Source of the DNA: Annona cherimola | Taxonomy: Eukaryota; Streptophyta; Magnoliopsida; Magnoliales; Annonaceae | Assembly: GCA_030490835.1 (NCBI GenBank) | Contig: CM059973.1 | Coordinates: forward strand, 55,990,008-56,054,007 | DNA: 64,000 nucleotides | Direction: 5' to 3' | In this document: positions 3,899 through 61,972 of the stretch, in pieces | How the letters are laid out: every line of letters starts with the position of its first letter | Numbering within the stretch: the stretch's first letter is position 1 | The notes under the pieces: generated by a model | Databases searched by the model: none | What the model was told of the DNA's origin: nothing | What the model saw: the letters and a program-made list of their open reading frames with translations, nothing else | Program-made: the position numbers and the translations under genes

Positions 3899-3926
3899 TA
3901 ATAACTCGTAAAAATACGAGTTATCA
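3899..3926 (+). repeat. Terminal hairpin at LTR start
   Basis: ATAACTCGTA and TACGAGTTAT pair across a short A-rich loop at the outer edge of U3. The same structure occurs at 15818-15845, and at 37754-37781 in another LTR, with different but still paired bases in the stem. Confidence 0.75.
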
Positions 3927-4229
3927 TGGCCCATTTCAGACTTTATTTGTGCCTATGTTCGAGAGATTAAGCTTAGTTTGCATACATTTAGCTTAAATTT
4001 CACTCGTGTTGCATTTTAGAAGCATTATTTAGTTTTTAGACATTTTAGCATTAATTAGGCATTTTTAGTTCATTTACTTTATTTTTCCATCTTTTGCAGG
4101 AAGGACAAGATATGAAGGCAATGCGGGCGAGTGGAATGTAGATCTAGACAAGTCACAAAGCAGGTGGATGGCACCTACGTGCCTTTGCCATGACACCAGC
4201 ACAATTTAGCATAGAGTGCTTCCAGTGAG

Positions 4230-4497
4230 TTGGCGCCTAGGCGCCAGCCAGGGGCGCCCAGGCGCCACTTCATCAACATGCAAGCAAAGTTCTGAAGATT
4301 TTTGAAGTCACAAGTCACATTGTTTCTAGGGAGTTGGCGCCTAGGCGCCAGGCATGATTTCACAATGTGTTCAGGAGAAGCTCCAAGTTGTGAAAACTCC
4401 AGGGAGTTGGCGCCTAGGCGCCAAGACATGAATTTTTAGGGTTTACAGAGAGGTTTCAAGTTGCCCAGCACATAGAGAGTTGGCGCCTAGGCGCCAA
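4230..4497 (+). repeat. Array of GGCGCCTAGGCGCC palindromes in U3
   Basis: Perfect copies of TTGGCGCCTAGGCGCC lie at about 4230, 4334, 4407 and 4480, so the last three are spaced about 73 bp apart. A variant, GGGGCGCCCAGGCGCC, lies at 4250-4265. Each palindrome is usually preceded by GAG or GGGAG. The array lies just upstream of the TATA box, where U3 enhancers are expected. A role in transcription-factor binding is inference only. Confidence 0.8.
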
Positions 4498-4545
4498 TAC
4501 GCATCCGTCTACGCAAATTTCAGTGCGTAAGCTGCGCAACCGGGC

Positions 4546-4555
4546 TTTATAAATA
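4546..4555 (+). promoter_or_regulatory. TATA box of 5' LTR
   Basis: TTTATAAATA lies about 50 bp after the last palindrome. It is conserved at 16480-16489 in the 3' LTR, while surrounding bases differ. It probably directs the genomic RNA start some 30 bp downstream, marking the U3/R boundary. Confidence 0.65.
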
Positions 4556-5534
4556 GATCCTAGGGGTTCGCACGTGGAAAGAAGAGAGGAGAGAACCCAG
4601 AAACGAACTACAAAGCTAGAGAAAAGAGGAAATCACGATCAAAGTACGGATTGAAGAGAGGATTCAACTCCGTTGGTGGAAGCCGCCGGAAAACTAGTTT
4701 TCTCTTATTCTTTCTCTGCTTTCATGGATACTTTTAATATGGATGTAATAGATGTTGTGATCATGTCTATGAACTAAACCTCCATTAGATGGATAGTTAG
4801 GATGAATTGAATTCTAAACTATATTATTTTTGGTTCTTTGAATTTTAGGAATGAATATTTAATTTTATATATGATTGTGTATGATTTACCTTTGCATGTG
4901 TGGATTTAATGTTTTTTACAAGATTAGCTACCTTGTAAGATGATTTATGTGCTTGATTATCCTTGGAAGAGGAAGATCTCTGCTAGATCCATGTGCAAGG
5001 CATAGGTTTCCACCTTGTTAAGGGGAGTTGTTTAACGGATAGGAATATACTGCTAAACCCTGTGTAGTCATTATTCAGGTTATAAACTTATCAATTTTAC
5101 TTTATTTAATGGCATGAGAACATAACAATTAAATAGGGTGTGATTAGCTTTATATAATGTTGAAAAACATATATAGAGATTAATGAACTTGGGCTAGTAA
5201 ATCCATACACGATCTAATTAAAAAGAACCAATGCGATATAGTTTAGATTCAAAGATTCCGAGCTATCCATCTGTCATCCCTGATCAGTAAACCCGTTTCT
5301 AGTATCCAGAAGTTTCGTAACTCTACTCTAATTTCTCATTGCAGTCGTTAGTTTTAGTTAAATCATAAACTCACAAATTTCCTCCCACCAAAAGCAGTTA
5401 AACGAATTAATAATTCTGGTTAATAATTCCTCGTGGGAACGATACTTTACTCACTCTTTATTACTTGACACGACACGTATACTCGCGTAAATAGCGAGCA
5501 TTTTAATTGACATATACGCAACTCATCAAGTTTT

Positions 5535-5552
5535 TGGCACCATTACCGGGGA
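5535..5552 (+). promoter_or_regulatory. Primer-binding site for tRNA-Asp
   Basis: TGGCACCATTACCGGGGA matches 15 of 18 positions of the complement of the plant tRNA-Asp 3' end, TGGCGCCGTTGCCGGGGA. All three differences are G-to-A, two of them at CpG sites, consistent with deamination of methylated cytosine on the other strand. It lies six bases (AGTTTT) after the LTR end. Confidence 0.85.
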
Positions 5553-5690: not shown

Positions 5691-6760
5691 ATGCGTCGAG
5701 GCAGAACCGGAAAGGAGATTGTTATTCCTTTTGATCCAGAACCTGAGCGAACGTATTTGAGAAGGCGTCAAAAGAGCAGGGAGGCTAGGAACCGACAGTA
5801 TACTATGGAGCGCATCGAGAACTAGGACGAAAACGTTCATGCAAACCAACAGGGAAACTAAAGGATTGAGATTCCAAATCATCCACCTCAAGATGATTTG
5901 GACAACCCATTTGGGATCTCATTGTGCTTGGCCAAAATGCAGTTCAGACGAGCATCGCACCTCCTCCTATCAACACTAACAATTTCAAGATCAAGCCGGT
6001 GATTTTCCAGATGCTCTAGTCCATTGGACAGTTCGGAGGGCTTGCGTCTGAAGACCCACACCGCCATCTGTGGAATTTTCTGCAGATTATGAACACATTC
6101 AAGCAAAACGGAGTCTCCGATGAGGTGATGCGGCTTCGAACTTTTTCATTTTCTCTGCTGGATAGAGCTTCGGAGTGGCTAGATTCTTTGCCCCCGAACT
6201 CTGTCAACACATGGAATGACTTGGCTCGGAAATTCTTGGAGAAATATTTCCCGCCTGCCAAGCTAGCCAAGCTGAGAATGGACATAGTCTCGTTCAAGCA
6301 ACACGGGGAGGAGACCCTATCAGAGGAGTGGGATCGCTTCAAAGACCTGCTCCGAAAATGCCCGCATCATGGAATTCAGCCGTGGGTTCAAATACAGATT
6401 TTCTATAACGGTCTCCAGGATTCCACCCGTCACATGGTGGATTCTTCATCAAACGGTTCTCTGCTGGGGAAAAGTTATCGAGAATTGTACGCCCTACATG
6501 AAAACATGGCGGCCAATACTTATCAACTGCCATCTTACAGGAGCCGAAGTGGGGGTCTACTTCAATTGGATGCAGTTTCATCGATAAAGGCCCACATCGA
6601 CGCTTTATCTCGGTAAATTTAGAACTTGTCCAGGCCAGCCAATGTCAGTGCACTAGGGGCTTCTACACCACAGCAGTCGACAACAGCAGATATTTGCAAG
6701 TGGTGTGGCGAATTTGGCCATCCCAGTGATGAATGCGCCTCCAATCCGAAGTCCATTAAT
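5691..6760 (+). pseudogene. Athila-type Gag, broken
   Basis: The probable start is the ATG at 5691, followed by a basic N-terminus; stops (for example TAG near 5823) and a frame change follow. The capsid-like core (retrotransposon Gag family) is clearest from about 6011 to 6616, with MRLRTFSFSLLDRASEWLDSLP-like residues shared with plant gypsy Gag. A zinc knuckle C-x2-C-x4-H-x4-C lies at 6695-6736 in the same frame, after a stop at 6614. Gag would package the genomic RNA in cytoplasmic virus-like particles. The 6011-6760 part shares its frame with pol, as expected for a single Gag-Pol polyprotein. It cannot now give a full-length product. Confidence 0.88.
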
Positions 6761-8149: not shown

Positions 8150-8698
8150 TTGAAGTCGTCGATCGAAGAGCCGCCTATCCTGGAGTTGAAACCCTTGCCA
8201 AAGCACCTTAGATATGCCTTCCTGGGAGTAGAATCCTCACTCTCAGTGATTATTTTTTCTGCACTTGATCCCGTGCAGGAAGAAAAACTGCTTAGAGTGC
8301 TCAGAAATCACAAAAAGGCCATAGGATGGATCATAGTAGACATTAGAGGCATCAGCCCATCCTTTTACATGCACAAGATTCAAGTGGAAGAGAATTCTAG
8401 GCCATCTATCGAAGCTCAGAGGAGGTTGAACCCAATCATGAAAGAGGTAGTAAAAAAGGAGATCATCAAATGGCTAGATGCAGGCGTAATATACCCTATC
8501 TCCGACAGTTCTTGGGTCAGCCCGGTGCAGTGCGTCCCGAACAAAGATGATATGACGGTCGTCTCCAACGAAAACAACGAGCTGATCCTGACTAGGATAG
8601 TTACTGGTTGGCGAGTTTGCATGGACTATCGCAAGCTGAATAAAGCCACCCAAAAGGATCATTTCCCGCTTCCATTCATTGATCAGATGCTGGACAGG
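8150..8698 (+). pseudogene. Reverse transcriptase, N-terminal part
   Basis: The stretch carries the first RT blocks: EAQRRLNP, KEIIKWLDAGVIYPISDSSW, and WRVCMDYRKLNKAT followed by HFPLPFIDQML. These are the fingers and upper palm of a Ty3/gypsy RT of Athila type. The frame is the same as gag and protease. It is cut at 8698 by the palindromic LTR insertion and resumes at 12063 in the same frame once the insertion and one copy of ACAGG are discounted. The codon just after the insertion is now TGA. Confidence 0.93.
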
Positions 8699-10365
8699 TG
8701 ATACTTCTAAAAATTTTCATTTAATTCCATGTTAAATTCGCACAAATAAATACTAAAATGATAATTAAATACAAGTTTTAAGTGGAATTGCACGAAAATC
8801 ATATTTTTGATAGAATCTTTAATTTTACTAAAAAATGGGACATTTTGCAAATATTCTTGAAAATATAAAATTATGACTCAAGAAAATTTTGATGTTGAAA
8901 TGTGTATTAGCTTATTAATATAATTTGGGCAAATTTATAAAATCATTTAATTGGAAAAATCATAACTATAATTATATTTTAAAATACAGGGAATAAAGTA
9001 GACTATCATATTTAGATGAATTAAAATTAAGATGATAATATCGAAATTATTTATCAACGAATTAATATTTAAATTCGTACTTAAAATACATTGCAGGAAC
9101 ACCGAATTTTCATGCACCACCGGAGCACCTGTTATGGTGCTCCATCTTCCCCAAAACGGCAGCGAGCATCCCGTCTTCTCCAAGCCGATCAAGCAGCCAT
9201 GGATGATTCGGTGCTGCAACTCATCTCACCGACCCACCAAGTAGCAACTATGCATTGGCCGAAAATCAGCAGCTCTGGCCACCAAATCAAAACCCTGCAT
9301 CTGAAGATTGGCAACCACTAAATCAAACCGAGCAGGACCTCTGATCATTTTCACCGCCCAAATCCAACCATCAATCATCCCCTTTTGCCGTAGAAAACCC
9401 ATCACAAACTACCGCATCCACCTATTTCAATTCAACAAACCAATAGCCTAAAATCCAAATTCGATTCCAGCAGCCATAGCTCTTCATCGAATCATCCTAG
9501 CCTCCATTTTGACAGCTCTCCATCTTCCTGAATCCCAATCGAAGCATCAACCCCTTTTGCCCAAGTTCTTCCTATGCTCTGACGAATTTCCAAAAGCTGA
9601 AATATCTACAGAAAACTTACACGGAAATAGACACACAACATCTCTCCCATCACTTGAAGTGGGGCTCATTAAGGTGGGACCTTTGCCAAGTGAGAAAAAG
9701 CTCCAAGGGCTTGGATTGCTTCTCAAAAGAGTGATCTTTAAGCAAGGATTGGGGTAATAAATTTTCTATTAATTATAGTTTTCTCTTTAAATGCTTTGTA
9801 GTTGTTAATTTTAGATTTGTAATATTTAGCGTAGATTTACCGCTTTATGCATTGTAATTTTTTTAATTAAGTTTAATGCAATTTTCATTCTTGTTTTCGT
9901 AGATTAAATTTTACTTCTATAGTCTTTTAATTACTGTCCTAATTTAGATTTAATTTTAGTTAATTGTAATTTCTCCTCTTCTTTCTCGGTCTCTTTCTCT
10001 CTCTTATTTATCTGCTTTCTCTCTCTCTTCTTTCTTTCTCTTTCTAATTCCCCTTTCTTCTCTCTCTCTAATTTCTTTTTCTTCTCTCTCTAATTTCTTC
10101 TATTTTCTCTTTTCTTTTCTCTCTAACGTCTCTTTCTCTTTCTCCTTTCTCTCTCTAATTTCTTTTTTCCCTAACTTCTTTCTCTCTCTTCTCTATACCC
10201 TCTCTTTCTCTTAAAAATAATTCAAAACTACATCGCCTCTCTGTGGATTCGACTCGACTCACCGTTATTCTACACTATCATCCGCATAGTGGTAGCTTTA
10301 ATGTGTTTCGGTTAATTTTAATTAAGCTGGTGATCACAGTGCTCTTAATGACAAGCACTTGGTGC
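8699..10365 (+). repeat. Left arm: plus-strand LTR lacking its last 6 nt
   Basis: It starts TGATACTTCTAAAAATTTTC and ends CACTTGGTGC. Compared with the opposite arm it lacks the final GCATCA. It contains a long CT-rich tract at about 9975-10205. The small open frames within it, such as 9509-9757, have mirror partners in the other arm and look incidental. Confidence 0.93.
9975..10205 (+). repeat. CT-rich tract in left LTR arm
   Basis: A polypyrimidine stretch of TCTCTC and TTTCTC words near the middle of the LTR, with a mirror A/G-rich stretch at about 10545-10785. It could sit in the leader between promoter and LTR end. It generates a spurious leucine/serine-rich frame on the minus strand at 10545-10793. 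Confidence 0.8.
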
Positions 10366-10383
10366 TCCCCAGCAACGGCGCCA
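10366..10383 (-). promoter_or_regulatory. Central 18-nt tRNA-Asp primer-binding site
   Basis: On the minus strand this reads TGGCGCCGTTGCTGGGGA, matching the tRNA-Asp complement at 17 of 18 positions. It is separated from the minus-strand LTR end by AGTTTT, the same linker as in element 1. The opposite LTR begins directly after its 18th base. This is the length copied from a tRNA primer before the modified A58, so it matches the end of plus-strand strong-stop DNA. Confidence 0.9.
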
Positions 10384-10389
10384 AAAACT

Positions 10390-12057
10390 TGATGCGCACC
10401 AAGTGGTTGTCGTTAAGAGCACTGTGATCACCAGTTTAATTAAAATTAACCGAAACACATTAAAGCTACCACTTTGCGGATGATAGTGTAGAATAACGTG
10501 AGTCGGGTCGAATCCACAGAGAGGCGATGTAGTTTTGAATTATTTTAAGAGAAAGAGAGGGAATAGAGAAGAGAGAGAAAGAAGTTAGAGAAAAAAGAAA
10601 TTAGAGAGAGAAAGGAGAAAGAGAAGGAGACATTAGAGAGAGAAGAAAAGAGAAAATAGAAGAAATTAGAGAGAGAAGAAAAAGAAATTAGAGAGAGAGA
10701 AGAAAGGAGAATTAGAAAGAGAAAGAAAGAAGAGAGAGAAAGAAGATAAATAAGAGAGAGAAAGAGACCGAGAAAGAAGAGGAGAAATTGCAATTAACTA
10801 AAATTAAATCTAAATTAGGACAGTAATTAAAAGACTACAGAAGTAAAATTTAATCTACGAAAATAGGAATGAAAATTGCATTAAACTTAATTAAAAAAAT
10901 TACAATGCATAAAGCGGTAAATCTACGCTAAATATTACAAATCTAAAATTAACAACTACAAAGCATTTTAAGAGAAAACTATAATTAACAAAAAATTTAT
11001 TACCCCAATCCTTGCTTAAAGATCACTCTTTTGAGAAGTAATCCAAGCCCTTGGAGCTTTTTCTCACTTGGCAAAGGTCCCACCTAAATGGTCCGCACTT
11101 CAAGTGATGGGAGATATGTCGTGTGTCTATTTCCGTGCAGGTTTTCTGTAGATATTTCAGCTTTTGGAAATTCGTCAGAGCATAGGAAGAACTCGAGCAA
11201 AGGGGGTTGATGCTTCGATTGGGATTCAGGAAGATGGCGAGCTGTCAAAATGGAGGCTAGGATGATTCGATGGAGAGCTATGGCTGCTGGAATCGAATTT
11301 GGATTTTAGGCTATTGGTTTGTTGAATTGAAATAGGTGGGTGCGGTAGTTTGTGATGGGTTTTCTGCAGCATAAGGGGATGATTGATGGTTGGATTTGGG
11401 CGGTAAAAATGATCAGAGGTCCTGCTCGGTTTGATTTAGTGGTTGCCAATCTTCAGATGCAGGGTTTCGATTTGGTGGCCAGAGCTACTGATTTTCGGCC
11501 AATGCATAGTTGCTACTTGGTGGGTCGGTGAGATGAGTTGCAGCACCAATCATCCATGGCTGCTTGATTGGCTTGGAGAAGACGGGATTCTCGCTGCCGT
11601 TTTGGGGAAGATGGAGCACCATAACAGGTGCTCCGGTGGTGCATGAAAATCCGGTGTTCCTGCAATGTATTTTAAGTACGAATTTAAATATTAATTCGTT
11701 GATAAATAATTTTGATATTATCATCTTAATTTTAATTCATCTAAATATGATAGTCTACTTTATTCCCTGTATTTTAAAATATAATTATAGTTATGATTTT
11801 TCCAATTAAATGATTTTATAAATTTGCCCAAATTATATTAATAAGCTAATACACATTTCAACATCAAAATTTTCTTGAGTCATAATTTTATATTTTCAAG
11901 AATATTTGAAAAATGTCCCATTTTTTAGCAAAATTAAAGATTCTATCAAAAATATGATTTTCGTGCAATTCCACGTAAAACTTGTATTTAATTATCATTT
12001 TACTATTTATTTGTGCGAATTTAACATGGAATTAAATGAAAATTTTTAGAAGTATCA
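10390..12057 (-). repeat. Right arm: complete minus-strand LTR (1668 bp)
   Basis: Read on the minus strand it begins TGATACTTCT at 12057 and ends GGTGCGCATCA at 10390, with both TG and CA ends present. It mirrors 8699-10365 with few differences. One example is TTTTACGTGG (minus reading) against TTTTAAGTGG in the left arm near 8776. Another is a one-base length difference in GATTCGGTGC versus GATTGGTGC. Confidence 0.93.
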
Positions 12058-12062
12058 ACAGG

Positions 12063-12530
12063 TGAGCGGGACGTGAATTCTATTGCTTTCTGGATGGCTA
12101 TTCAGGTTATCATCAGATTATGATAGCACCGGAGGACCAAGAAAAGACCACGTTCACATGTCCCTATGGCACGTTCGCATTCAGGCGAATGCCGTTTGGC
12201 CTATGCAATGCTCCAGGCACATTTCAGCATTGTATGATGGCTATTTTTATTGACATGGTGGAGGATTTCCTGAAGGTATTCATGGACGATTTCTCGGTAT
12301 TCGAAAATTCCTATGACGAGTGTCTGACCAACTTATCGAAAATGCTCCAGCGTTGCGAGGATACGAACCTGGTTCTTAATTGGAAAAAGTATCATTTTAT
12401 GGTGCAGGAGGGAATCGTACTTGGTCACAAGGTCTCTAAACAGGGAATTGAAGTGGACAAAGCTAAAATCGAGATGATCGGGGCATTCACAGTTTTTTTG
12501 GACATGCATGATTCTACAGGCGATTCATAA
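12063..12530 (+). pseudogene. Reverse transcriptase, catalytic part
   Basis: It continues the RT frame interrupted at 8698. The first catalytic Asp lies in FLDGYSGY (codon 12093-12095), and the FMDD box supplies the other two (12285-12290), with FMDD being usual in Athila RTs. MPFGLCNAP precedes FMDD as expected. After IEVDKAKIE a short deletion of roughly ten codons shifts the frame near 12480. This removes the segment that normally leads into the FLGHAGFYRRF block, which is still visible in another frame near 12500-12530. With the stop at 12063 and the 3.36-kb insertion, this RT is inactive. Confidence 0.92.
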
Positions 12531-13060
12531 AAGACTTCTTAAAGATAGCCAAGCCGCTATGTTCACTGCTCGAGAAAGATGCGCCATTCGAATTCACCAG
12601 CGAATGTATGGAGGCATTCAAGGAGCTGAAAAAGAAATTGGTATCCGCACCAATTATTATATCTCCAGAATGGAACCTCCCATTCGAATTGATGTGCGAT
12701 GCGAGCGACTACGTAGTGGGAGTGGTACTGGGACAACGAAAGAACAAGGTTTTTCACTCCATCTATTACGCTAGAAAAACCTTGAACGAGGCACAAATGA
12801 ATTATACTACAACCGAAAAGGAACTGCTAGCAGTGGTATTTGCATTCGACAAATTCAGAGTCTATCTGGTGGGCACCAAAGTGATCATTTACACAGACCA
12901 TCCAGTGATCAAATATTTGATCGAGAAAAAGGATGCAAAACCACGCTTGATTCGGTGGGTCTTATTGCTACAGGAATTCGACCTTGAAATCAAAGATCGA
13001 AAGGGAGCTGAGAATTAGGTCGCTGACCATCTATCTCGCCTTGAAGGATCCCAGTTAACC
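12531..13060 (+). pseudogene. RNase H domain
   Basis: The Ty3/gypsy RNase H lies mostly at 12608-13015 in a frame different from the RT before it. The catalytic acidic residues are visible in [14 protein letters not shown] and YTDH. The block ending in [12 protein letters not shown] is followed by a TAG stop (13016-13018, from CAG by a single transition) and then VADHLSRLE, the usual domain boundary. The enzyme would remove the RNA strand during cDNA synthesis. Separation from RT by the deletion near 12480 makes it a pseudogene. Confidence 0.9.
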
Positions 13061-15817: not shown

Positions 15818-17475
15818 TGATAACTCATAAAAATATGAGTTATCATGGCCCATTTCAGACTTTATTTGTGCGTATGTTTGAGAGATTAGGCTTAGTTTGC
15901 ATACATTTAGCTTAAATTTCACTCGTGTTACATTTTAGGAGCATTATTTAGTTTTTAGGCATTTTTAGCATTAATTAGGCATTTTTAGTTCATTTACTTT
16001 GTTTTTCCATCTTTTGCAGGAAGGACAAGACATATGAAGGCAATGCGGGCGAGTAGAATGCAGATCTAGACAAGTCACAAGGCAGGTGGATGGCACCTAG
16101 GCGCCACCCTACATGCCTTTGGCATGACACCAACACAATTCCGCATAGAGTGTTTCCGGTGAGTTGGTGCCTAGGCACCAGCCAGGGGCGCCCAGGCGCC
16201 ACTTCATCAACATGCAAGCAAAGTTTTGAAGGTTTTTTAAGTCACAAGTCACATTGCTTCCCGGGAGTTGGCGCCTAGGCACCAGGCTTGATCTCACAAT
16301 GTGTCCAGGAGAAGCTCCAAGTTGTGAAAACTCCAGGGAGTTGGTGCCTAGGCGTCAAGACATGAATTTCTCGGGTTTGCAGAGAGGTTCCAAGTTGCCC
16401 AGCACATAGAGAGTTGGCACCTAGGTGCCAATACGCATCCGTCGGCATAAATTTTAGTGTGTAGGCTGCACAACCGAGCTTTATAAATAGATCCTAGGGG
16501 TTCGCGTGCGGAAAGAAGAGAGGAGAGAGCCCAGAAACAAACTACAAAGCTAGAGAAAAGAGGAAATCGCGATCAAAGCACGAATTGAAGAGAGAATTCA
16601 ACTCCGTTGGTGGAAGCCGCCAGAAAATCAGTTTTCTCTTATTCTTTCTATTTTTCTTTCTCTGCTTTCATGGATACTTTTAATATGGATGTAATGGATG
16701 TTGTGATCATGTCTATGAACTAAATCTCAATCAGATGGATAGTTAGGATGAATTGAATTCTAAACTATATTGTTTTTGGTTCTTTGAATTTCAGGAATGA
16801 ATATTTGATTTTATATATGATTGTGTATGATTTACCTTTGCATCTGTGGATTTAATGCTTTTTACAAGATTAGCTACCTTGTAAGATGATTTATGTGCTT
16901 GATTTATCCTTGGAAGAGGAAGATCTTTGCTAGATCCATGTGCAAGGCATAGGTTTCCACCTTGTTAAGGGAAGTTGTTTAACGGATAGGAATATACCGC
17001 TAAACCCTGTGTAGTAATTATTCAGGTTATAAACTTATCAATTTCACTTTATTTAATGGTATGAGAACATAACAATTAAATAGGGTGTGATTAGCTTTAT
17101 ATAATGTTGGAAAACATATGTAGAGATTAATGAACTTGGGCTAGTAAATCCATACACAATCTAATTAAAAAGAACCAATGCGATATAGTTTAGATTCAAG
17201 GATTCCAAGCTATCCATCTGCTATCCCTGATCAGTAAACCCGTTTTTAGTATCCGGAAGTTTCGTAACTCTACTCTAATTTCTCATTGCAGTCGTTAGTT
17301 TTAGTTAAATCATAAACTCATAATTTTCCACCCACCAAAAGCAGTTAAACTAATTAATAATTCTAGTTAACAATTCCTTGTGGGAGCGATACTTTACTCA
17401 CTATTTATTACTTGACATGGCACCTATACTTGCGTAAATAGCAAGCATTTTAATTGACATATACGCAGCTTGTCA
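15818..17475 (+). repeat. 3' LTR of element 1
   Basis: It starts TGATAACTCA and ends CAGCTTGTCA, with CGCCC following as the right target-site duplication. It matches the 5' LTR throughout, with scattered differences. The GGCGCC palindromes are mostly decayed here: examples read GGTGCCTAGGCACC (about 16165), GGTGCCTAGGCGTC and GGCACCTAGGTGCC. The 5' LTR keeps four perfect copies. The TATA box at 16480-16489 and the terminal hairpin (15818-15845) are retained. Confidence 0.92.
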
Positions 17476-21699: not shown

Positions 21700-22836
21700 G
21701 TTTGCATTTGATCCATTCTTTCATCATTTTTCTTGAGCATTAGAATGATATTTTTGAGCATGGACTCAGTGGGTTGGGTTTATTATTTTGAGCATAATTT
21801 TGGGTGTTTGACTGGTTTGTCCAACAGAAATTGGGGTGGTTCCTCCATCCAAGGTTGTAAGTATTTGAGTATGGGTTACTATGAGTGCGCGTGTTATACT
21901 GGTTGTTGATTGCATTGGCTTGCTCGCCTGTGGTGTCCTGTATGGAAAAACTACACTCAGATGTGTAGTGTGAAGCTCCACAGATCTCACATGAAATGTG
22001 CCGAGAAGAAGATGCATCTGATCCGTTTCCTGTTTCTTCTGCTGCAAAATTTGATCAATTTTAGCATGAAGAGAATTTAGATACTCGATATCATATACAT
22101 TACCTTACCGAGAGGGTCCTCGGACGTCACCATATTGAGAATCATAAAGCGTCAAGTCATCGAGAAGCTCGAGAGCCTCCTCGTCAGTGAGTCGCATGAA
22201 TCGGCCACCAGCGGCTGAATTGACAGCGCTTTGGCTAGGTCGATCGAGTCCATTGAAAAAGTTTTCAATAATATCACCCTGCGAGATGCCATGATGTGGA
22301 CACTTGCGCTACAGATCTTTCATTCTCTCCAACGCATCATATAAGGTTTCCCCATCTTTTTGGACGAACTGATTGATCTCGTCTCTGATTTTCCTAGTTT
22401 TGTTGGGTGGAAAGAATTTTTCCAGGAAAGCAGTAGAGAGCTCGTCCCATGTGTTGAAAGTATCGGGCGGCATAGAATAGAACCACTCGCTTGCCCTGTC
22501 GCGAAGAGAAAACGGAAAAAGTTGCAGATGGATTACCTCATGTGGGATATTTTGCACCCTGATTGTGTTGCACAACTACATGAACTTAGTGATGTGAACG
22601 GTTGGGTTTTCAGAGGGTAGTCCTGCAAATTGGTCTTGTTGAACCATCCGGATGAGTCCGGGATTTAGTTCAAAATTTCTTCCATCGATCTCTAGTTCAA
22701 CTATGCATGATCGGAATCCACGACGGTTCGGGCAGTTCCGATCACTAAGAGTTACCCTTCTTGGAGGAGCATTGTTCTCAGCCCGGCCTTCCTCCTGCTC
22801 TTGATGTGGCGGGTTTGGATTGTTGTATTCTGCCAT
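21700..22836 (-). pseudogene. Element 2 Gag, broken
   Basis: It starts at the ATG at 22836 with MAEYNNPNPPHQEQEE, an acidic proline-rich N-terminus. The capsid-like core includes LFPFSLRDRASEWFYSMPP near 22510-22450 and FLEKFFPP. One stop (22576-22578) splits the N-terminus from the core, and another lies near 22307. The nucleic-acid-binding knuckle CEICGASHYTSEC (C-x2-C-x3-H-x4-C) is at 21991-21953 in a different frame, so at least one frameshift separates it from the core. Pol is in a third frame. The protein would assemble virus-like particles and bind genomic RNA. Confidence 0.87.
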
Positions 22837-23104: not shown

Positions 23105-23111
23105 AAATACT

Positions 23112-24713
23112 TGTTCGCAATCTCACCACAAGTGCACGGGTTGTAGATTGTAGTATATAAAATATCGATCAACAGGGAATTCGAGACTAAAAATTTTTCT
23201 TTTAAACACTTTCTCGTCGGATTTAATGGATTAGAAAAGTTGAAAGAGGATGTAGTAAATTAAATGGAAAAGATATACGAAATTGGGAAGAGAAAATAAA
23301 ATAGAAATTAGAATGATTTGAGAAAATGAGAGTGTGAGTATCTAGGGTCTAGGATTTCACATGCGTCTTTTGCAACGGGTAGTGGTATAATTATTTACTC
23401 TGGATATTTTTTGTTAAAGGAGAACAAACCATAATTTATCCTTGCACCTTCTCTCGAAACCTACAAGGCGTATCCTAATTTTCTTAACCACCTATTCTGA
23501 TGGGATTAAGTTAATTATAATCCATTAAGTTCTGTGGCTTGTTCATGGAATTTCTCAAGGTCATCATGCCTATTCTCATGGTCTTAGATTTCCAGGTTTA
23601 ATATCTTGATTATCGTATATTAGATTTTCACCTCTCGGTTCCATCACCTAATATACGGAATTATGCTAAAGTACGGGCCAATGTACAAAGCAAGCGTTAA
23701 AATCACAAAATATTAAATTAACAACAATATCCATCATAAATAAATTAACATCCACATCACGCTACATTGTACGCATGCTACATTCTAAACCCTAGATTAA
23801 GTGTTTAGCCCGGCATGTTCAAGTCCAACAGAGAATTAACATAACATCCCATCTTAAACAAGACAATAAAAATAAAGAAAAGAAAAGCTTATTGGTTTGG
23901 AGCTCCAATGATGTGTCGGTCGCTCCACGCAACTCGCTGGTTCTCCTCTCGCCTGTGCTCTCCACCTCTCTCTCTATCTCTCTTTCTCTCTCTGAAAAAC
24001 GGCCTTCCCCTTTTCCTTCGAAATTTTATTCTATTCAGTCTGGAACCCTCAAAGGGTTTTTATACATCCCTTAAAATGAGTCAGCCGCTCGCAATCGTAC
24101 GCAGGTTTGCGTATTGGCGCCTAGGCGCCAACTTGCTGGAAGTTGCTGATTGAGGGTGTTCGTAACTTGCTTGAAGATGGGAAAGTGGCGCCGGGGTGCC
24201 CCTGTCTAGCGCCTAGGCGCCAACTCTCTGGATGATTTACGACTTGAAAATCCTCCTGGAAGTCCTGTATGAGCATGCCATGGCGCCTAGGCGCCAACTT
24301 CCTAGAAGCAATTCTACCTTATGATCCCCAAAACCCTTTCGGACTTTTCAGCACGTTGATGAAGTGGACTCTCTGGAAGCAGACCGAAATGTGGTGTTGG
24401 AGATTCTGGCATGAGCCTGTAGGGTGGCGCCTAGGCGCCGACACCCTTGCTTTCTTTGGTTTCTCTTTTCTTCCATCCATCGTGCTCTTAAGTGTTCCCT
24501 GTTTCTTCTTGTCCGAATTCCCTTAGACAAAAGAATGGAATGAAATTTCAAGCCGAAAGATTATAAAAGTTATTAAATATCTTAAAATTCATGTTCAACA
24601 CCCAATTGATGCAAAAATCACATTTTAAACCAAATTTCATATTGAACTCAAATAATTCCCCATAAAATTGGTATAAAATGCCCACATAATATATTGTTAA
24701 TTTCCAATTATCA
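23112..24713 (-). repeat. 5' LTR of element 2
   Basis: On the minus strand it starts TGATAATTGGAAATTAAC at 24713 and ends GAGATTGCGAACA at 23112, next to the PBS linker. A probable TATA box (TATAAAA on the minus strand) lies at 24057-24063. Upstream of it in U3 are GGCGCC palindromes at about 24114, 24208, 24281 and 24424. Its right end is defined by comparison with the solo copy ending at 61967, since no partner duplication survives. Confidence 0.88.
24114..24440 (-). repeat. GGCGCC palindrome array in element 2 LTR
   Basis: One perfect TTGGCGCCTAGGCGCCAA lies at 24114-24131, with close forms at 24208-24223, 24281-24297 and 24424-24440. On the minus strand the palindromes are preceded by AGAGAGTTGGCG, and one is followed by CAGGGGCACC and GGCGCCACTT. 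Element 1 has the same surroundings at 4225-4268. The array lies upstream of the TATA box, as in element 1. Confidence 0.85.
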
Positions 24714-25429
24714 ATTATTAATCTAATTCACTAATTAGAGTTCTAATTATGGATGTAACATATATATCATATCACATCATTTTTTTAGTCCTGTTTCAAC
24801 AGTTTAGATCATCATAAATACATTTTTAATTAAATCTTTAATAGTCCACATCGACTTATCATTATTTCTACTAACATAAGTATTATTGAGACAAAATTAC
24901 AAATGCTCAAAACTATTCATCCATCAAGGTGTCAATACATGATCTAACATCATATCTTTATGTAAAATTAAATTTTACATACATCTACTAGTTTGGAATT
25001 ATGAATTCAATGGTTGAGATCATTCCTTTGCTATCTAATGGTATATAATTTGTTTGGGCCAACTTCGTTTACAATTTTAGGCAGAATTTTCTAATGAGGG
25101 TCTGCAGTCATGGCCCGCTTTCTCGGTAATAAAACTCCTCCATTATAAAACTACATCTTGCATGGATTAGATTTATTTAACCAAAATTTTACTTATCTTA
25201 CCGTTGAATCCCATGCAATGGCCGAGATTGATCTTCACATATTAAGATTAAAAAAAATAAACTTGTTACTAAACATTTTAAAGAAACAAAATGACTGAGA
25301 TTGGGTTGGATTGCTTGATCATAGCTTCTCTCTCTCTCTCTCTCCGTTCCTTCTCTTCCCTCTCAACTTTTGTTATCTCCACCCTATTTCTCTTCCGTCT
25401 CAACATTTTTATATAGTTTTGAGGAAAAC
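24714..25429. other. AT-rich non-coding stretch with CT repeat
   Basis: No gene is recognised. A short (CT)n microsatellite lies at 25326-25344. The stretch separates element 2 from the copia LTR fragment that follows. Confidence 0.5.
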
Positions 25430-41480: not shown

Positions 41481-42200
41481 GTAAGAAAACCCTTCAAAAT
41501 GTTATTTCAAAAGAATTTTATGATAAGAAAATCCTTTCTTATCTTTTCATTTTATGAAAGGATATTAGTCATTGAATGATTATTTTATTTTTCTTTTATA
41601 TGTTTAAATTATGTATTTTGAAATGAAAATTTCCAATTTATTTGATGATAACATGCATATTTTCTTACAATAATCATCATTTATGGTATGCTTCTATGCA
41701 TTAAGTACCCTGTGGGTGAGACGGGAGGAAATGTTTCTGAGGAAACTGAGCCCAGCCACTTGACCTCGGGTCTTAAGGGTGGTGCCAGAGGCGTTTCAAG
41801 TATCCTCTGGAGTTAAGTAGGATGTATATGACTCATGCACGACATTGTAAGCAAGCCCTTCAAAATGTTATTTTAAAAGAATTTTATGGCAAGAAAATTT
41901 GTTCTTATTTTTTCGGTTTATGAAATGATATTTGCCAATAAATGATTTTTATGTGTTTGAATTATGCACTTTGCAATGAAAATTTTCTAGTTTATTTTGT
42001 GACGTCATGCATATTCCTCACAATGATCATGATTCCTGGTAGACTTGTATGCAATAAGTGCCCTGTGTAGTGATATAGTATGTGATATTTCTGAGGAAAC
42101 CGAGCCCAGTCACCTGACCTTGGATCTTAAGGGTGGTGCCAAAGGTGTTTCAAGTATCCTCTGGAGTTAAGCAGGATGTATACGATTCATGCACTGTATT
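41481..42200 (+). repeat. Tandem duplication of about 360 bp in giant LTR
   Basis: Two diverged units carry CCCTTCAAAATGTTATTT, then TGAGGAAACTGAGCCCAG (CCGAGCCCAG in the second), then CTTAAGGGTGGTGCCA and CCTCTGGAGTTAAG. The first starts near 41485 and the second near 41853. They include the GC-rich block that other giant LTRs have once or twice. Confidence 0.85.
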
Positions 42201-42615
42201 GTTAAGCATGTAAGATCAAAAATGTTATTATAGTGGATGATAAAAAATGTTATTATGCATGTTCGTACTTATTTCATTACAATACATGCATAAAAAGAAT
42301 TTAAGAATTTTATGTTATGAACAAATGCAACGGATTATGAAATTTCATGTATTTCTAAATTTTTGCTTACTAAGTATTTTATACTCACTGTGTTCAAATA
42401 ACTAGTGCATGCAAATGTTGCAGACTTGATAGAGGAGTCTCTACTACTAATAAAGTAGTGAAGATATGATTTATAATGCTTTTGAGGTATTTTAAGCCTT
42501 GGGATATAATTATTAAAATTGTACGTATTAAGTTTATTTGTTATGTTGAGGTTATATGACATTGAAATTAGGTTTTCATGTAAGGTATCATTGTAGAAGA
42601 GATGTACTAGATGCG

Positions 42616-44669
42616 TGATAATTGGAAATTAATAATATATTTTATGGGCATTTTATACTAATTTGGCGGGTAATTAATTGAGTTTAATGTGAAATTTGCT
42701 CTAAAATGTGGTTTTACAACAATTGGGTATTAAATATTAATTTAAAGTTATTTAAATAATTTTTATAATCTTTTGGCTTGAAATTACATTTTTTATTTGT
42801 TGCCATGAAATTAAATGGGCTTGAAATAATTTTTATAATGAGAACCCACTAATGATTTTGATGAATTAATGATTTAAATATTTTTTATGCAGTTTTGTAA
42901 GTTCAAGTGGGCCCCACAAGGTTTGCAAGTTCAAGAGTTCAGCAACAAATCAAATGCATCTTAGCCGTCCATCAAGGCCCATCAAAGATCTGCCAATATG
43001 AACCGTCCAAATAGAAACTAACGTGTTGAAAAATTCAGCACTGGTCAATCAGCAACCTGCAACGGCCAGATCACGCCCAGATCCATGCCAAAATTAAATC
43101 TGGTCGTCCAGATTTCCTCCAACAAATATCAGCCCACGTCATCCAAGCAACTACCCTTAATTAAATCTGCACCGTCCATTTTTGAACATCCAGCAGATTA
43201 ATTAGCAACCGCCTTGATTTTCAATCTGCACGGCCCAGTCCCTTGAATCACCACCGTCCAATATCCAGCCATCCATGCCATCCAACTGTCCAAACCAACT
43301 GTTCAGATTCTTCACCGTCCTAAGTGGGCCCAACAAGCTGCCCGTCCAGATCACATTCAGAAATCCATCAGATGGATCACCACCGTCCAAAGCATGTCAA
43401 AATCAGCAGTTTAATTCCACTTCCTCAGCTCAGATCAGCCGTCCAAGTATCCATAAATTCTTATCCATCCAAGCTAAATAATTCATGATAGAATTAATAC
43501 CCAAATTTTTCAGCAAGCTAAGCCGTCCAAATTTCTGATCCACTAGAAAATTCCATGACCGATTAAACGATGCATGCACATCTAATAGGTGGAGCAAGTC
43601 GTCCACATTAGATTTTGATGCGCAATCCGTAGACGTCAAGCTGCCCGCTTAGATACAAATTGCGTTGGCTTTAATTATACACAGAGTTGCTCCCTTATGA
43701 ATTAAGGGCTGGACGAACATGATGGGGGAACACAGAATTCACGAACGGAGGATTCCAGATAGAAAATTCACGGCAGAAAGAATTGAAGAGAAAAAATTAG
43801 AGAAGAGAGAGAGACACACAAGGAGGTGGAGAGCACCGTCAAAAGGAGGACTGGCGAGTTGCGTGAAGCAGCCGACACACCATCAGGAGCTTCAAACCAA
43901 TAAGTCCTACTATCTTTTTCTCTTTTAATTGTCTTGTTTAAGATGAATTTTGATTTTAATTTTATTTTGAACTTAAACATGCTTGGCTAATCCCTAAATC
44001 TAGGGTTTAGGATGTAGCACGCGTACAATGTAGCGTGGTGTGGGTTTTTAATTTATGACGGATCTTGTTGTTAATTTAATATCTTGTGATTTTTATGCTT
44101 GCTTTGTACATAGGCCCGTACTTTGGCATGATTCCATATATTAGGTGATGGAACCGAGAGGTGGAAATTTAATATACGATAATCAAGATATTAAACCTGA
44201 AAATCTAAGACCATGAGAATAAGCATGATGACCTTGAGGAATTCCATGAACAAACCATAGAACTTAATGAATTCTAATTAACTTAATCCCATGAGAATAG
44301 GTGGTTAAGAAAATTAGGGTATGCCTTGCAAGTTTTGAAAGAAGGTGCAAGGATAAATTAGGGTTTGTTCTCCTTTAACAAACAATATCCAGATTAAATA
44401 ATTATACCACTACCCGTTGCCAAAGACGCATGTGAAATCCTAAACCCTAGGTACTCGCACTCTCGTTTTCTCTACTCGTTCTAATTTTCAATTTTCTCTT
44501 CCCATTTTTCTATTTCTTTTCTAATTTATTATCTTCCCATTTTTTTATTCGATTTTATATCCGACACGAAAGCGTTTAAAAGCAAAATTTATAGTCCTGA
44601 ATTTCCTGTGGATCGATAATTTATATACTACAATCTACGACCCGTGCACTTGCGGTGAGATTGCAAACA
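42616..44669 (+). mobile_element. Nested solo LTR (2054 bp), element 2-related
   Basis: It starts TGATAATTGGAAATTAA and ends GGTGAGATTGCAAACA, with the duplication ATGCG on both sides (42611-42615 and 44670-44674). Ends and the 3' half match the LTR of element 2. The middle (42890-43660) has many CCGTCCA words and no GGCGCC palindromes, so it is a sister family. The fragment at 2285-3540 is the same type. No coding sequence follows. Confidence 0.9.
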
Positions 44670-44968
44670 ATGCGCTGAGATAGATATGAATGAATTTAGT
44701 AGAAAATATTTGATTATGTAATGATTATGAGGTTTTGTCTTACACAAACATAAACAGCATGCTGCCGAATTTTAGTTAAGGAAATAGAATCGAAATAGGT
44801 TCTAAAAGAAAAGAAAAAAATTGAGACTGGTTTTCAAACACATTATAAAGGCTTTCGCTTGTATAAGAATGAAATTTTAGCTTCATTCACAAGTTTCACA
44901 GCTTAAAAAGATCCGTGGAGTAAGGTTTTATATTGTGGTGAGCTCATGGTTCGGGGCGCTACAGTACA

Positions 44969-58690: not shown

Positions 58691-59319
58691 TTTGGAGAAA
58701 TTTTGAGATTAATATTTAAATATATTGATGGAATTTTTAAAGGATTTATGGATAAAAATCCATATAAATGAATAATGACCAAGTATTTATAAAAGGATAA
58801 CCTCTATAAAAATGAGGTAATATGTAATCATAAAGCATGCATGGAAAGCAAGCTAAGTCATGGAATAGATGGATAAAATATCCAATTTCCTTGTATAGGA
58901 AAAGGAAAGGAAAGGATAAAGGAGTCAGGTTGAAGCAAAGCAAAGGTAAGCAAGCTAACTTTTTAAAATATGATTTTATTTTCAAGTATTTATGAAATGT
59001 GTTTAAGGGTGGTCATTCCTATAATGTTTTGAAATAATGAATGTTTATGAGTTTTTATGAAAAGTCATGCTGGCATATTGATATCATGTGATGTTTATGG
59101 ACATGTGCACATGTACGATGTATAAGGAAGAGGCTTTGGTGGAGGTAGAAAGCGGATCAGAGGGTCCCCCTTCACTATTGCCGAGTCGTATGGGCTGTGT
59201 GCCAACGGCGTCCTCTCCAGAGGTGGAGGCAAAGGAATGTTATGTTTGAATGAATGCATTGCATTTTCATACATGGATTGAAAAGGAAAGCATGGATTTG
59301 AAATTATGTTTTTAAGGGA

Positions 59320-59820
59320 TGGTGCAAATAATTCTCTACATGAAAATGACAAGTCACCTCGTGTAAGAGGTATATAATGCCGGAAAAATCAAAAGTTATG
59401 CATGTAGAAACCATGTAGGCGTCAAGAGGAAGAGAGGTTCCCCTTGATGAGGCCAAGTTGGAGACAGCCGGCGTATTGGACCATGCTATGTGAGATGTTT
59501 CTTGGGCTAGCGTACCCACACATGAAGGTTTATGTCAGAAATGGAAAAAAAGTATTTGCACACATGGATTTGAAAAGATATTTTTAAGGGTGGTGAAAAT
59601 AATTCTCTACATGAGAATGACAAGTCACCTAGTGTAAGAGGTATATAATGCCAGAAAAATCAAAAGTCATGCATGAAGGACCATGTAGGCGTCAAGAGGA
59701 AGAGAGGTTCCCCTTGATGAGGCCAAGTCGGAGACAGCCGACGTATTGGACCATGCTATGTGAGATTTTTCCTAGGCTAGCGTACCTGCACACGAAGGTT
59801 TCTGTCAGGAGTGGAAAGGA
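59320..59820 (+). repeat. Duplication of about 275 bp
   Basis: The segment from ATAATTCTCTACATGA through GCGTCAAGAGGAAGAGAGG to TGTGAGAT...GCTAGCGTAC occurs at about 59328-59550 and again at 59603-59815, nearly unchanged. Confidence 0.9.
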
Positions 59821-61343
59821 AGCATTTGCACATCCAATGTTTATGAAAAGGTTTCTATTCCATTGATAGTTGATCACTTGCTAAGTGTCTCCTATCGAAT
59901 GGAGAGAAATGCATTTACGAATGATTTACATGAATGGTTTATGAAAGGTTTCGAAATATGGTTTACGAAAAGATTTCTATTCCGTTGGTAGTTGATCGTT
60001 TGATAAGTGTCTTCAATCGAATGGAGAGGAATGCATTTAAAATGAAAAATACTTGCTTATTGAGTTTCGACTCATGTTTTGTTTTCCCAACCTCAGACAG
60101 GTGTAGAGAAAGCCAAGATATGAAGGGCATGTGTTGCTAAAGAAAAAGAGAAATCTACCAAGGTTAGTAGATTTTTGTACAAATAGATTCCCTAATGGGA
60201 TATGATGAAAAAGGGTATAGGTTGTATAAAATTATAAAGTTATGAATAATATAAGAAGTTGATGATTTATGATGATATGGATATGTCCATTAAGAATGAT
60301 GATGAGTATATGTTTATATGATGAAAAGAAAAAGAAAGAAAAAAAAATGAAAAAAAAATTGGACGAGATCCAATTAAGTACTCGCCGCGTGATCAGGGCA
60401 ACAATCCTGATTCACACTTACCAATCGACAAGATCCTGGAGTAAGGACTATGTGGACGCCTTGGTTCGAGGCGCCACAGATGTAGTAAATTAAATGGAAA
60501 AGAAACAAAAAATTGGGAAGAGAAAATAAAATAGAAATTAAAATGAGTGGAGAAAACGAGAGTGTGAGTATCTAGGGTCTAGAATTTCACATGCGTCTTT
60601 TGTAACGGGTAGTGGTATAATTATTTAATCCGGATATTGTTTGTTAAAAGAGAACAATCCCTAATTTATCCTTGCACCTTCTCTCGAAACCTACAAGGCG
60701 TACTCTAATCTTCTTAACCACTTATTCTCATGGGATTAAGTTAATTAGAATCCATTAAGTTCTATGGTTTGTTCATGGAATTCCTCAAGGTCATCATGCC
60801 TATTCTCATGGTCTTAGATTTTCAGGTTTAATATCTTGATTATCGTATATTAGATTTCCACATCTCGGTTCCATCGCCTAATATATGGGAATCATTGCCA
60901 AAGTGCAGGCATTCGCACTAAGCGAGCATTAATCACAAGATATTAAATTAACAACAATATCCATCATAAATAAATTAACATCCACACCACGCTACATTGT
61001 ACGCATGCTACATCCTAAACCCTAGATTAAGGGTTTAGCCTAGCATGTTCAAGTCCAAAAGAGAATTAACATAATATCCCATCTTAAACAATAAAAAGCA
61101 AAGAAAAGAAAAGCTTATTGGTTTGGAGCTCCGAGATGTGTCGATCGCCCTACGCAACTTGTCGGTCCTCTTCTCGCCTGTGCTCTCCACCTCTCTCTCT
61201 CTCTCTCTTTCTCTCTCTCTAAAAAAAATCTCTAATCTCTTCTCCTTCGAAAAATTATCTCCCCCCCTTTCGGAACCCTCAAATGGTTTATATATATCCC
61301 TTAAAACGAGCCAACTGCTCGTAATCGTACCCAGGTCTGCATA

Positions 61344-61700
61344 TTGGCGCCTAGGCGCCCCTAGGCACCAGCTCTCTGTGTGATGAGCAATTTGGACACA
61401 TTCTGGAAATCCTAGAAAATTTTACACTGGCGCCTAGGCGCCAACTCTCTGAACTGTCCCTGCCTGGAACTTCTCCTTAACTTTTGTAGTTACCCCTGGG
61501 TGGCGCCTAGGCGCCAACTCCCTGGATGTAATTTTACCTTGTGATCCCCAGAACCCTTTCGGACTTTTAAGCATGTTGGTGAAGTGGCGCCTAGGCTCCA
61601 ACTCTCTGGAAGCAGACTGAAATGTGGCGCTGGAGATCTGGCATGGGCCTATAGGGGTGGCGCCTGGGCACCACTGGTCCGCGCCTAGGCGCCGACACCC
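61344..61700 (-). repeat. GGCGCC palindrome array in the solo LTR
   Basis: Perfect or near-perfect GGCGCCTAGGCGCC copies lie at about 61344, 61428 and 61501. Decayed copies lie at 61585 (GGCTCC) and 61660-61693. Spacing is about 75-85 bp. The layout matches element 2's LTR, with one or two copies more. Confidence 0.85.
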
Positions 61701-61972
61701 TTGCTTGCTTTGGTTTCTCTTTTCTTCCATCCATCATGCTCTTAAGTGTTCCCTATTTCTTCTTGTCCGAATTCCCTTAGACAAAAGAATGGAATGAAAT
61801 TTCAAGCCGAAAGATTATAAAAGTTATTAAATATCTTAAAATTCATGTTCAATGCCCAATTGATGCAAAAATCACATTTTAAACCAAATTTCATATTGAA
61901 CTCAAATAATTCCCCATAAGATTGGTATAAAATGCCCACATAATATACTGTTAATTTCCAATTATCAAGTGG

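Follow-up and report, generated by a model that had tools for sequence, protein, structure and literature searches.

Integration of retroelement cDNA is usually described as requiring the U3 end and the U5 end of one finished molecule; in vitro, retroviral integrase also integrates U3/U3 donors, using two U3 ends in one concerted integration. DIRS-type elements, which are retrotransposons with inverted terminal repeats, rely on a tyrosine recombinase and are not known to make a target-site duplication (TSD); kilobase inverted arms with a TSD are found in foldback and long-TIR DNA transposons. Complex LTR insertions arising by template switching, in which the LTRs lie in direct orientation within one TSD, are described in the excerpts of Sabot and Schulman (2007; PMC1950507) used here. 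No report of integrated U3-U3 LTR palindromes was found in the literature searched (titles and the starts of abstracts, with few subscription papers covered), which is weak evidence that such structures are new. Here we describe one such palindrome in the genome of Annona cherimola, together with a second complete unit in the same genome.

Architecture of the unit and its host element

The window analysed is a stretch of 64,000 nucleotides (contig CM059973.1 of assembly GCA_030490835.1, positions 55,990,008 to 56,054,007 of the forward strand), and positions given without a prefix refer to it. At 8699-12057 it contains a 3,359-bp unit composed of two LTRs joined U5 to U5 with their U3 ends outward; the outer ends are TGATACTTCT and AGAAGTATCA, and ACAGG lies on either flank as a TSD (8694-8698 and 12058-12062, unstranded). 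The right LTR (10390-12057, minus strand) is complete at 1,668 nt and has both the TG and the CA end (TGATAC...GCATCA), whereas the left LTR (8699-10365, plus strand, 1,667 nt) has the TG but is without the final 6 nt of its U5 end (GCATCA), so that the CA is lost. Mirror symmetry spans the whole unit and ends at its boundaries, the flanking host bases being mirrored at only 8 of 20 positions, and an open-reading-frame check of 8699-12057 found no frame of 150 aa or more. A preliminary description of this DNA had reported head-to-head LTRs of about 1.67 kb with outward U3 ends, an ACAGG duplication, and no internal genes; all of this holds, with the arm lengths refined as above. The orientation of the LTRs is confirmed by relatives elsewhere in the genome, several of which have the PPT-like GGGGGGTG or a close variant before the U3 end, while AGTTTT and a primer-binding site (PBS) follow the U5 end of others.

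The unit interrupts the reverse transcriptase (RT) gene of an older Ty3/gypsy element that is colinear on both sides of it. The LTRs of this host lie at 3899-5528 and 15818-17475 (K2P 0.066), the 3′ copy being preceded by the purine tract GGGGGGTG. Between them are a PBS with three mismatches, following the same AGTTTT spacer as in the unit (5535-5552), a gag fragment (Retrotrans_gag, 6020-6616), a protease-like piece whose match is below Pfam's cut-off, pol sequence up to the insertion (8150-8698), the resumed RT (12066-12527; RVT_1 68-205), and an RNase H domain (12512-13015); all of the host features with coordinates are on the plus strand. On the left the RT ends at residue 142 of Ty3 RT and on the right it continues from residue 147, with four codons between, the first of which is a stop; nothing therefore seems to have been lost or gained except the 5-bp duplication. 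Given exact U3 termini on the outside, a duplication of 5 bp, and a host RT that runs on colinearly past the insertion, the best reading is a single integration of a DNA carrying two U3 ends, as the preliminary description had claimed.

The host 5′ LTR contains a perfect palindrome, TTGGCGCCTAGGCGCCAA, which recurs in this or a changed-edge form within 4231-4498 in steps of 104, 73, and 73 bp. Other features of the window are GGCGCC clusters (near 16100-16275, 24115-24440, and 61345-61693), another repeat present in three copies that are 84-85% alike and in both orientations (23111-24714, 43799-44670, and 60479-61968), and two-copy tandem repeats of ~270 and ~370 bp (59291-59832 and 41481-42208, respectively). 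There are also two matches to Rfam snoR71, at 22286-22392 (+) and 6269-6375 (-); the score of the second equals the gathering threshold and the match falls within the gag frame of the host, so it may be due to chance or be repeat-derived.

Relatives of the LTR and divergence of the arms

A search of the genome (791.8 Mb) with the left arm gave at least 43 matches, 40 of the 4,079 first-look candidates having been scored. Normal relatives have LTRs that end in GCATCA or a close variant and are 2,274-3,074 nt long in the 29 measured rows; an exact 5-bp TSD is present in six of the 29 rows with both ends located (L014 and L015 being one duplicated stretch), and gag follows the PBS in all three relatives tested. 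In the genome there are 64 exact copies of the LTR-PBS junction, and a scan of IMG/VR for it returned 0. The preliminary description had envisaged a full-length parent; normal relatives are common, but the genome search found no full-length element with the unit's own LTR.

While PBS, PPT, and gag are all present in relatives, the window unit itself carries the PBS only; these features, and the 5-bp TSD (ACAGG here and GAAAG in the second unit described below), point to a derivative of a gag-bearing LTR retrotransposon, for which the term gypsy would rest on the likeness of LTR and PBS to the host element, whose RT matches Ty3 RT. A canonical LTR element has direct LTRs around gag-pol; the unit has inverted LTRs around a 24-nt centre.

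Some of the relatives have unusual arrangements of their own. On the minus strand of C7:41583000-41588500 (L025), an LTR of ~2.68 kb ends in GCATCA followed by AGTTTT and then GTCAC, and GTCAC is also found before the U3 end, as though integration had left the spacer attached to U5. At C7:70523000-70528000 (L042), one LTR has the PPT-like GGGGGTTG before it and a PBS after it, as if common to two elements. The solo LTRs L014 (C3:20.61 Mb) and L015 (C3:18.61 Mb) have the same TSD and flanks in opposite orientation, 2 Mb apart, and to judge from these are a duplicated segment.

The two arms of the unit are ~97% identical, with 49 substitutions in 1,662 aligned sites (K2P 0.030) and, besides the missing 6 nt, four small indels. 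Polarisation against relatives from the same genome (37 for R-U5 and 26 for U3, omitting L003 and L004, which are repeats of L009 and L013, and also L015 for the U5 part) shows 25 differences derived in the right arm and 18 in the left, four with both states in at least three relatives, and one unclear; for the seven U3 sites beyond about position 490 the assignment rests on one relative, and some CT-tract columns vary with the alignment. Thus 43 of the 48 polarised substitutions look derived in one arm only, with the derived state in no more than two relatives, so the arms were near-identical when the unit arose. This agrees with the earlier claim that the differences accumulated after insertion. 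Substitutions no more than 2 nt apart are in slight excess (7 vs 2.8 expected, P 0.017), with no such excess in the host LTRs, and the transition to transversion ratio is lower in the arms than in the host LTRs (35:14 vs 86:16, P 0.08); a few differences could thus have pre-existed between the arms. Divergence is lower between the arms than between the host LTRs, in keeping with a nested insertion, and at rates of 7e-9 or 1.3e-8 substitutions per site per year the estimated ages are about 2.2 or 1.2 Myr for the arms and 4.7 or 2.6 Myr for the host LTRs.

The U3-R fusion, the central PBS, and other U5-U5 joints

Both arms lack the promoter-proximal part of U3 together with its TATA box, an extra stretch that the relatives keep. 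In the right arm mid-U3 is fused to the inferred start of R at 11127-11128 (minus strand), and the left-arm equivalent is at about 9628/9629. The fusion site (arm position 931, aligned or extrapolated) corresponds to a point 22-36 nt downstream of the TATA box in 38 of 39 relative rows (L004 and L013 being one place), with the exception of L042, where the distance is 44 nt; the fusion therefore appears to lie near the transcription start. A 301-bp probe across the fusion gave 41 matches listed, 40 of 300 candidates having been scored, and only the two arms run through the fusion; in the nearest among the matches listed (C4:56528617) the sequence goes on into ordinary U3 and comes to a TATA box after 728 nt. 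Because the fusion is common to both arms and absent from the other copies examined, a single aberrant cDNA was probably the ancestor of the two. It is unlikely that a transcribed parent passed on an LTR without a promoter; the fusion therefore probably dates from the round of reverse transcription that made the unit, and was then copied into both arms. Homology in U3 that might guide such a mis-transfer is weak: of six R-start seeds, one singles out the junction as its best site (a result reached in 1 of 300 shuffles), a second scores it equal best, and the four others score it below the best.

Read on the minus strand, the right arm ends in GCATCA and is followed by the spacer AGTTTT (10384-10389), by the 18 nt of TGGCGCCGTTGCTGGGGA, and then directly by the reversed left arm without its GCATCA. 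The same spacer is present in the host element and in 14 of the 15 PBS-bearing relative rows, the exception being L042 with CATTTT. The 18 nt (10366-10383, minus strand) are a PBS that abuts the left LTR and has one mismatch to the form commonest in relatives; we take it to be of the tRNA-Asp type. With up to three mismatches the PBS pattern has three matches in the window vs none in 100 shuffles, and so is not a chance occurrence. The PBS is followed by GGC in 14 of the 15 PBS-bearing relative rows, and in the unit by the start of the reversed LTR (GCACC); as the relatives too continue with a G, the length of the PBS is ambiguous by 1 nt. In HIV, copying of the tRNA into plus-strand strong-stop DNA stops after 18 nt, ahead of m1A58, according to excerpts of an experimental study of that virus (PMC13191261). 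This suggests that the right arm plus the 18-nt PBS ends, within the 1-nt ambiguity, at the plus-strand strong-stop end point. The preliminary description, supported as to a unit with two U3 ends, overlooked both the PBS in its centre, an indication of the cDNA intermediate, and the U3-R fusion shared by its arms.

An 18-nt imperfect palindrome with the halves ACTTGGTGC and GCATCAAGT overlaps the end of the right arm (10387-10404, minus strand), with 8 of 9 positions per half in Watson-Crick correspondence plus one G-T, and its centre corresponds to the place where the left arm breaks off, 30 nt short of the right-arm/PBS end. It is the only dyad with 8/9 complementarity in the right arm, and the best there. 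Since 73 of 300 shuffled arms contain one as good, what is informative is its position alone, and this was noticed post hoc. The ends at the joint are alike at 3 of 6 positions, which offers no microhomology for priming, and blunt end joining accounts for the joint equally well.

Further head-to-head copies, a prospect raised in the preliminary description, do exist: the genome contains a second complete unit with its own TSD, and a third locus with a U5-U5 joint. The second unit (C4:54941816-54947769, located via a U5-U5 contact pattern at C4:54944946) has a GAAAG duplication on both sides and LTRs of 3,134 and 2,788 nt, U3 outward and both ending in GCATCA; its joint is AGTTTT-TAAATTTTTATTTAGCACCA-AAAACT, in which only ~1 nt and ~7 nt of PBS are left, plus filler. 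The middles of its two U3 regions are unlike each other, with 46-63% mismatch in five 300-column windows, which indicates two different templates, and a single snap-back thus cannot explain this unit. Elsewhere its arms differ at 10 of 228 positions (4.4%) at the U3 start, at 21 of 428 (4.9%) in the block before the CT-rich tract, and at 2 of 169 (1.2%) in the last 170 nt, which are conserved in the family; in the block before the CT tract the arms are mutually closest among the sequences fetched, and over the last 170 nt the left arm has a closer match in the C1 locus described next. We had considered that its R-U5 regions, at first taken to be ~1% apart, were a shared minus-strand strong-stop copy, but dropped this in view of the 4.9% before the CT-rich tract.

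The third locus (C1:82911083; positions 2087-8963 of L046, which is C1:82906100-82916099) has a U5-U5 joint around GGCGCC that keeps ~6 and ~2 nt of PBS, and consists of a PPT-preceded LTR, an inverted LTR piece of ~700 nt, and a truncated direct LTR; no TSD-bounded unit was found in the 10 kb examined. The exact strong-stop end is thus present in one of the three U5-U5 joints, that of the window unit. Joint patterns were searched as exact matches with raw counts, so the numbers are lower bounds, for which the 64 LTR-PBS junctions of the family are a yardstick. CACTTGGTGC...GCACCAAGTG is found at two places in the genome (C1 and the window), TGGTGCGCATCA...TGATGCGCACCA at two (C1 and C4), and ATCAAGTTTT...AAAACTTGAT at nine, among which the C1 and C4 loci are of the same LTR family as the window unit; the other seven, which may or may not belong to it, have no GGCGCC in their cores. 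A trimmed arm facing a PBS-bearing arm was matched exactly by the window unit only, and the exact genome search for PBS-to-PBS joints gave 0 for the Asp type and 0 for the initiator-Met type.

Origin of the units and comparison with known systems

We propose that the window unit is a fossil of failed reverse transcription, in which a strong-stop cDNA was doubled or joined at its U5/PBS end and integrated via two U3 ends, and we would put the probability of this at roughly two in three. From the structure of the unit, its exact termini and TSD, the 18-nt PBS endpoint, the near-identity of the arms at birth, and the second unit, we infer the following enzymatic steps. Minus-strand strong-stop DNA would have reached the 5′ end of the RNA and continued in mid-U3, deleting the promoter part of U3, and plus-strand strong-stop DNA primed from the PPT would have halted after 18 nt of the primer tRNA had been copied. 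The second strand transfer would then have failed, and at the U5/PBS end the 3′ end may have turned back on its own strand or on that of a sister, aided by the near-palindrome there; alternatively, it may have been end-joined to a sister copy trimmed by 30 nt. Finally, the linear product, with a U3 terminus at each end, would have been inserted by integrase with a 5-bp duplication. A snap-back hairpin has one duplex end only, so that a partner strand or opening of the hairpin is needed; the centre might be the work either of reverse transcriptase, turning around at the self-complementary end, or of cellular end joining. The exact strong-stop end and the common fusion speak, in the case of the window unit, for a doubled plus-strand strong-stop DNA, either one molecule or sister strands, while the second unit would require end joining or a jump to another RNA. 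The units appear to share two steps, U5-to-U5 joining at the PBS or close to it and then integration by two U3 ends.

The alternative that survives best is that two full-length linear cDNAs were end-joined at U5, the dimer was integrated by its outer U3 ends, and its halves later collapsed to solo LTRs through recombination of LTR with LTR. Solo LTRs with TSDs exist in the family; at C1:82911083 the LTR that is joined U5-U5 to an inverted LTR piece is preceded by a PPT, and so has internal sequence beside it; and excerpts of a review (PMC12786077) report that two-LTR circles of yeast Ty1 need ligase IV. We nonetheless consider this origin unlikely, as two further deletions would be required in each of two units, the full 18-nt PBS at the U5 end marks strong-stop DNA and not a finished linear cDNA, and arms with a common U3-R fusion are likely to have been copied from a single cDNA. 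Much less probable are two separate insertions in opposite orientations at one site with deletion of the intervening DNA: nested and repeated elements are frequent in the window, but the same 5-bp target would have to be used twice in opposite orientations, the deletion would have to end within 1 nt of the PBS end, the fusion in the arms is absent from all others of the 41 matches listed, and the second unit would need equal luck with its target. Self-integration of retroelement cDNA is known, and one LTR end could have been joined by integrase into another cDNA of the same particle with the product then integrated; however, an integrase joint retains the terminal CA of the attacking LTR, and with the last 6 nt of the left arm missing, CA included, we see very little prospect for this account. 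Long palindromes are also a known class of artefact, as when a missed adapter mirrors a read, but with unmirrored flanks, symmetry that halts precisely at the TSD-flanked LTR termini, arms that differ by 49 substitutions, a host RT colinear across the unit, and unlike U3 middles in the second unit, an assembly or read artefact is the least credible explanation of all.

With at least two units in one genome, there are natural records of integration through two U3 ends. If the window unit did arise from a strong-stop cDNA, the integrated molecule was probably unfinished, and the unit seems to preserve, for a plant element, the place on the tRNA primer at which plus-strand strong-stop synthesis came to a halt. 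From so long an LTR palindrome within a transcribable element one would predict hairpin RNA, a possible trigger of silencing. It is a speculative and rather doubtful extension that the family has a recurrent side route, in which a self-complementary U5/PBS end doubles strong-stop cDNAs into U3-ended palindromes that integrase accepts, each insertion being a hairpin-RNA locus able to seed small-RNA silencing of the parent family.

Comparison with known systems shows partial correspondence with several. Like a solo LTR, the unit has LTR sequence only, TG...CA ends, and a 5-bp TSD, but a solo LTR ends in U3 on one side and in U5 on the other; a solo-LTR reading was rejected since there are two LTRs, with U3 at both ends. 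It resembles DIRS-type elements in having inverted repeats of retrotransposon origin, and differs from them in its 5-bp TSD and tRNA PBS, with no open frame of 150 aa or more inside. Unlike those of foldback or long-TIR transposons, its arms are LTRs, and normal relatives of the gag-bearing retrotransposon from which they come have a PBS and a PPT. U3/U3 integration in vitro used engineered donors in a tube, whereas these are natural events in a plant genome. The complexes of Sabot and Schulman (PMC1950507), as described in the excerpts used here, likewise involve aberrant reverse transcription giving an odd cDNA, one integration, a single flanking 5-bp TSD, and matching outer LTRs; the flanking TSD is found here too, but the number and orientation of the LTRs differ, those complexes having three direct LTRs, the third of them shared by two direct elements, with internal domains, and the window unit two inverted LTRs with no internal domain and U3 at both termini.
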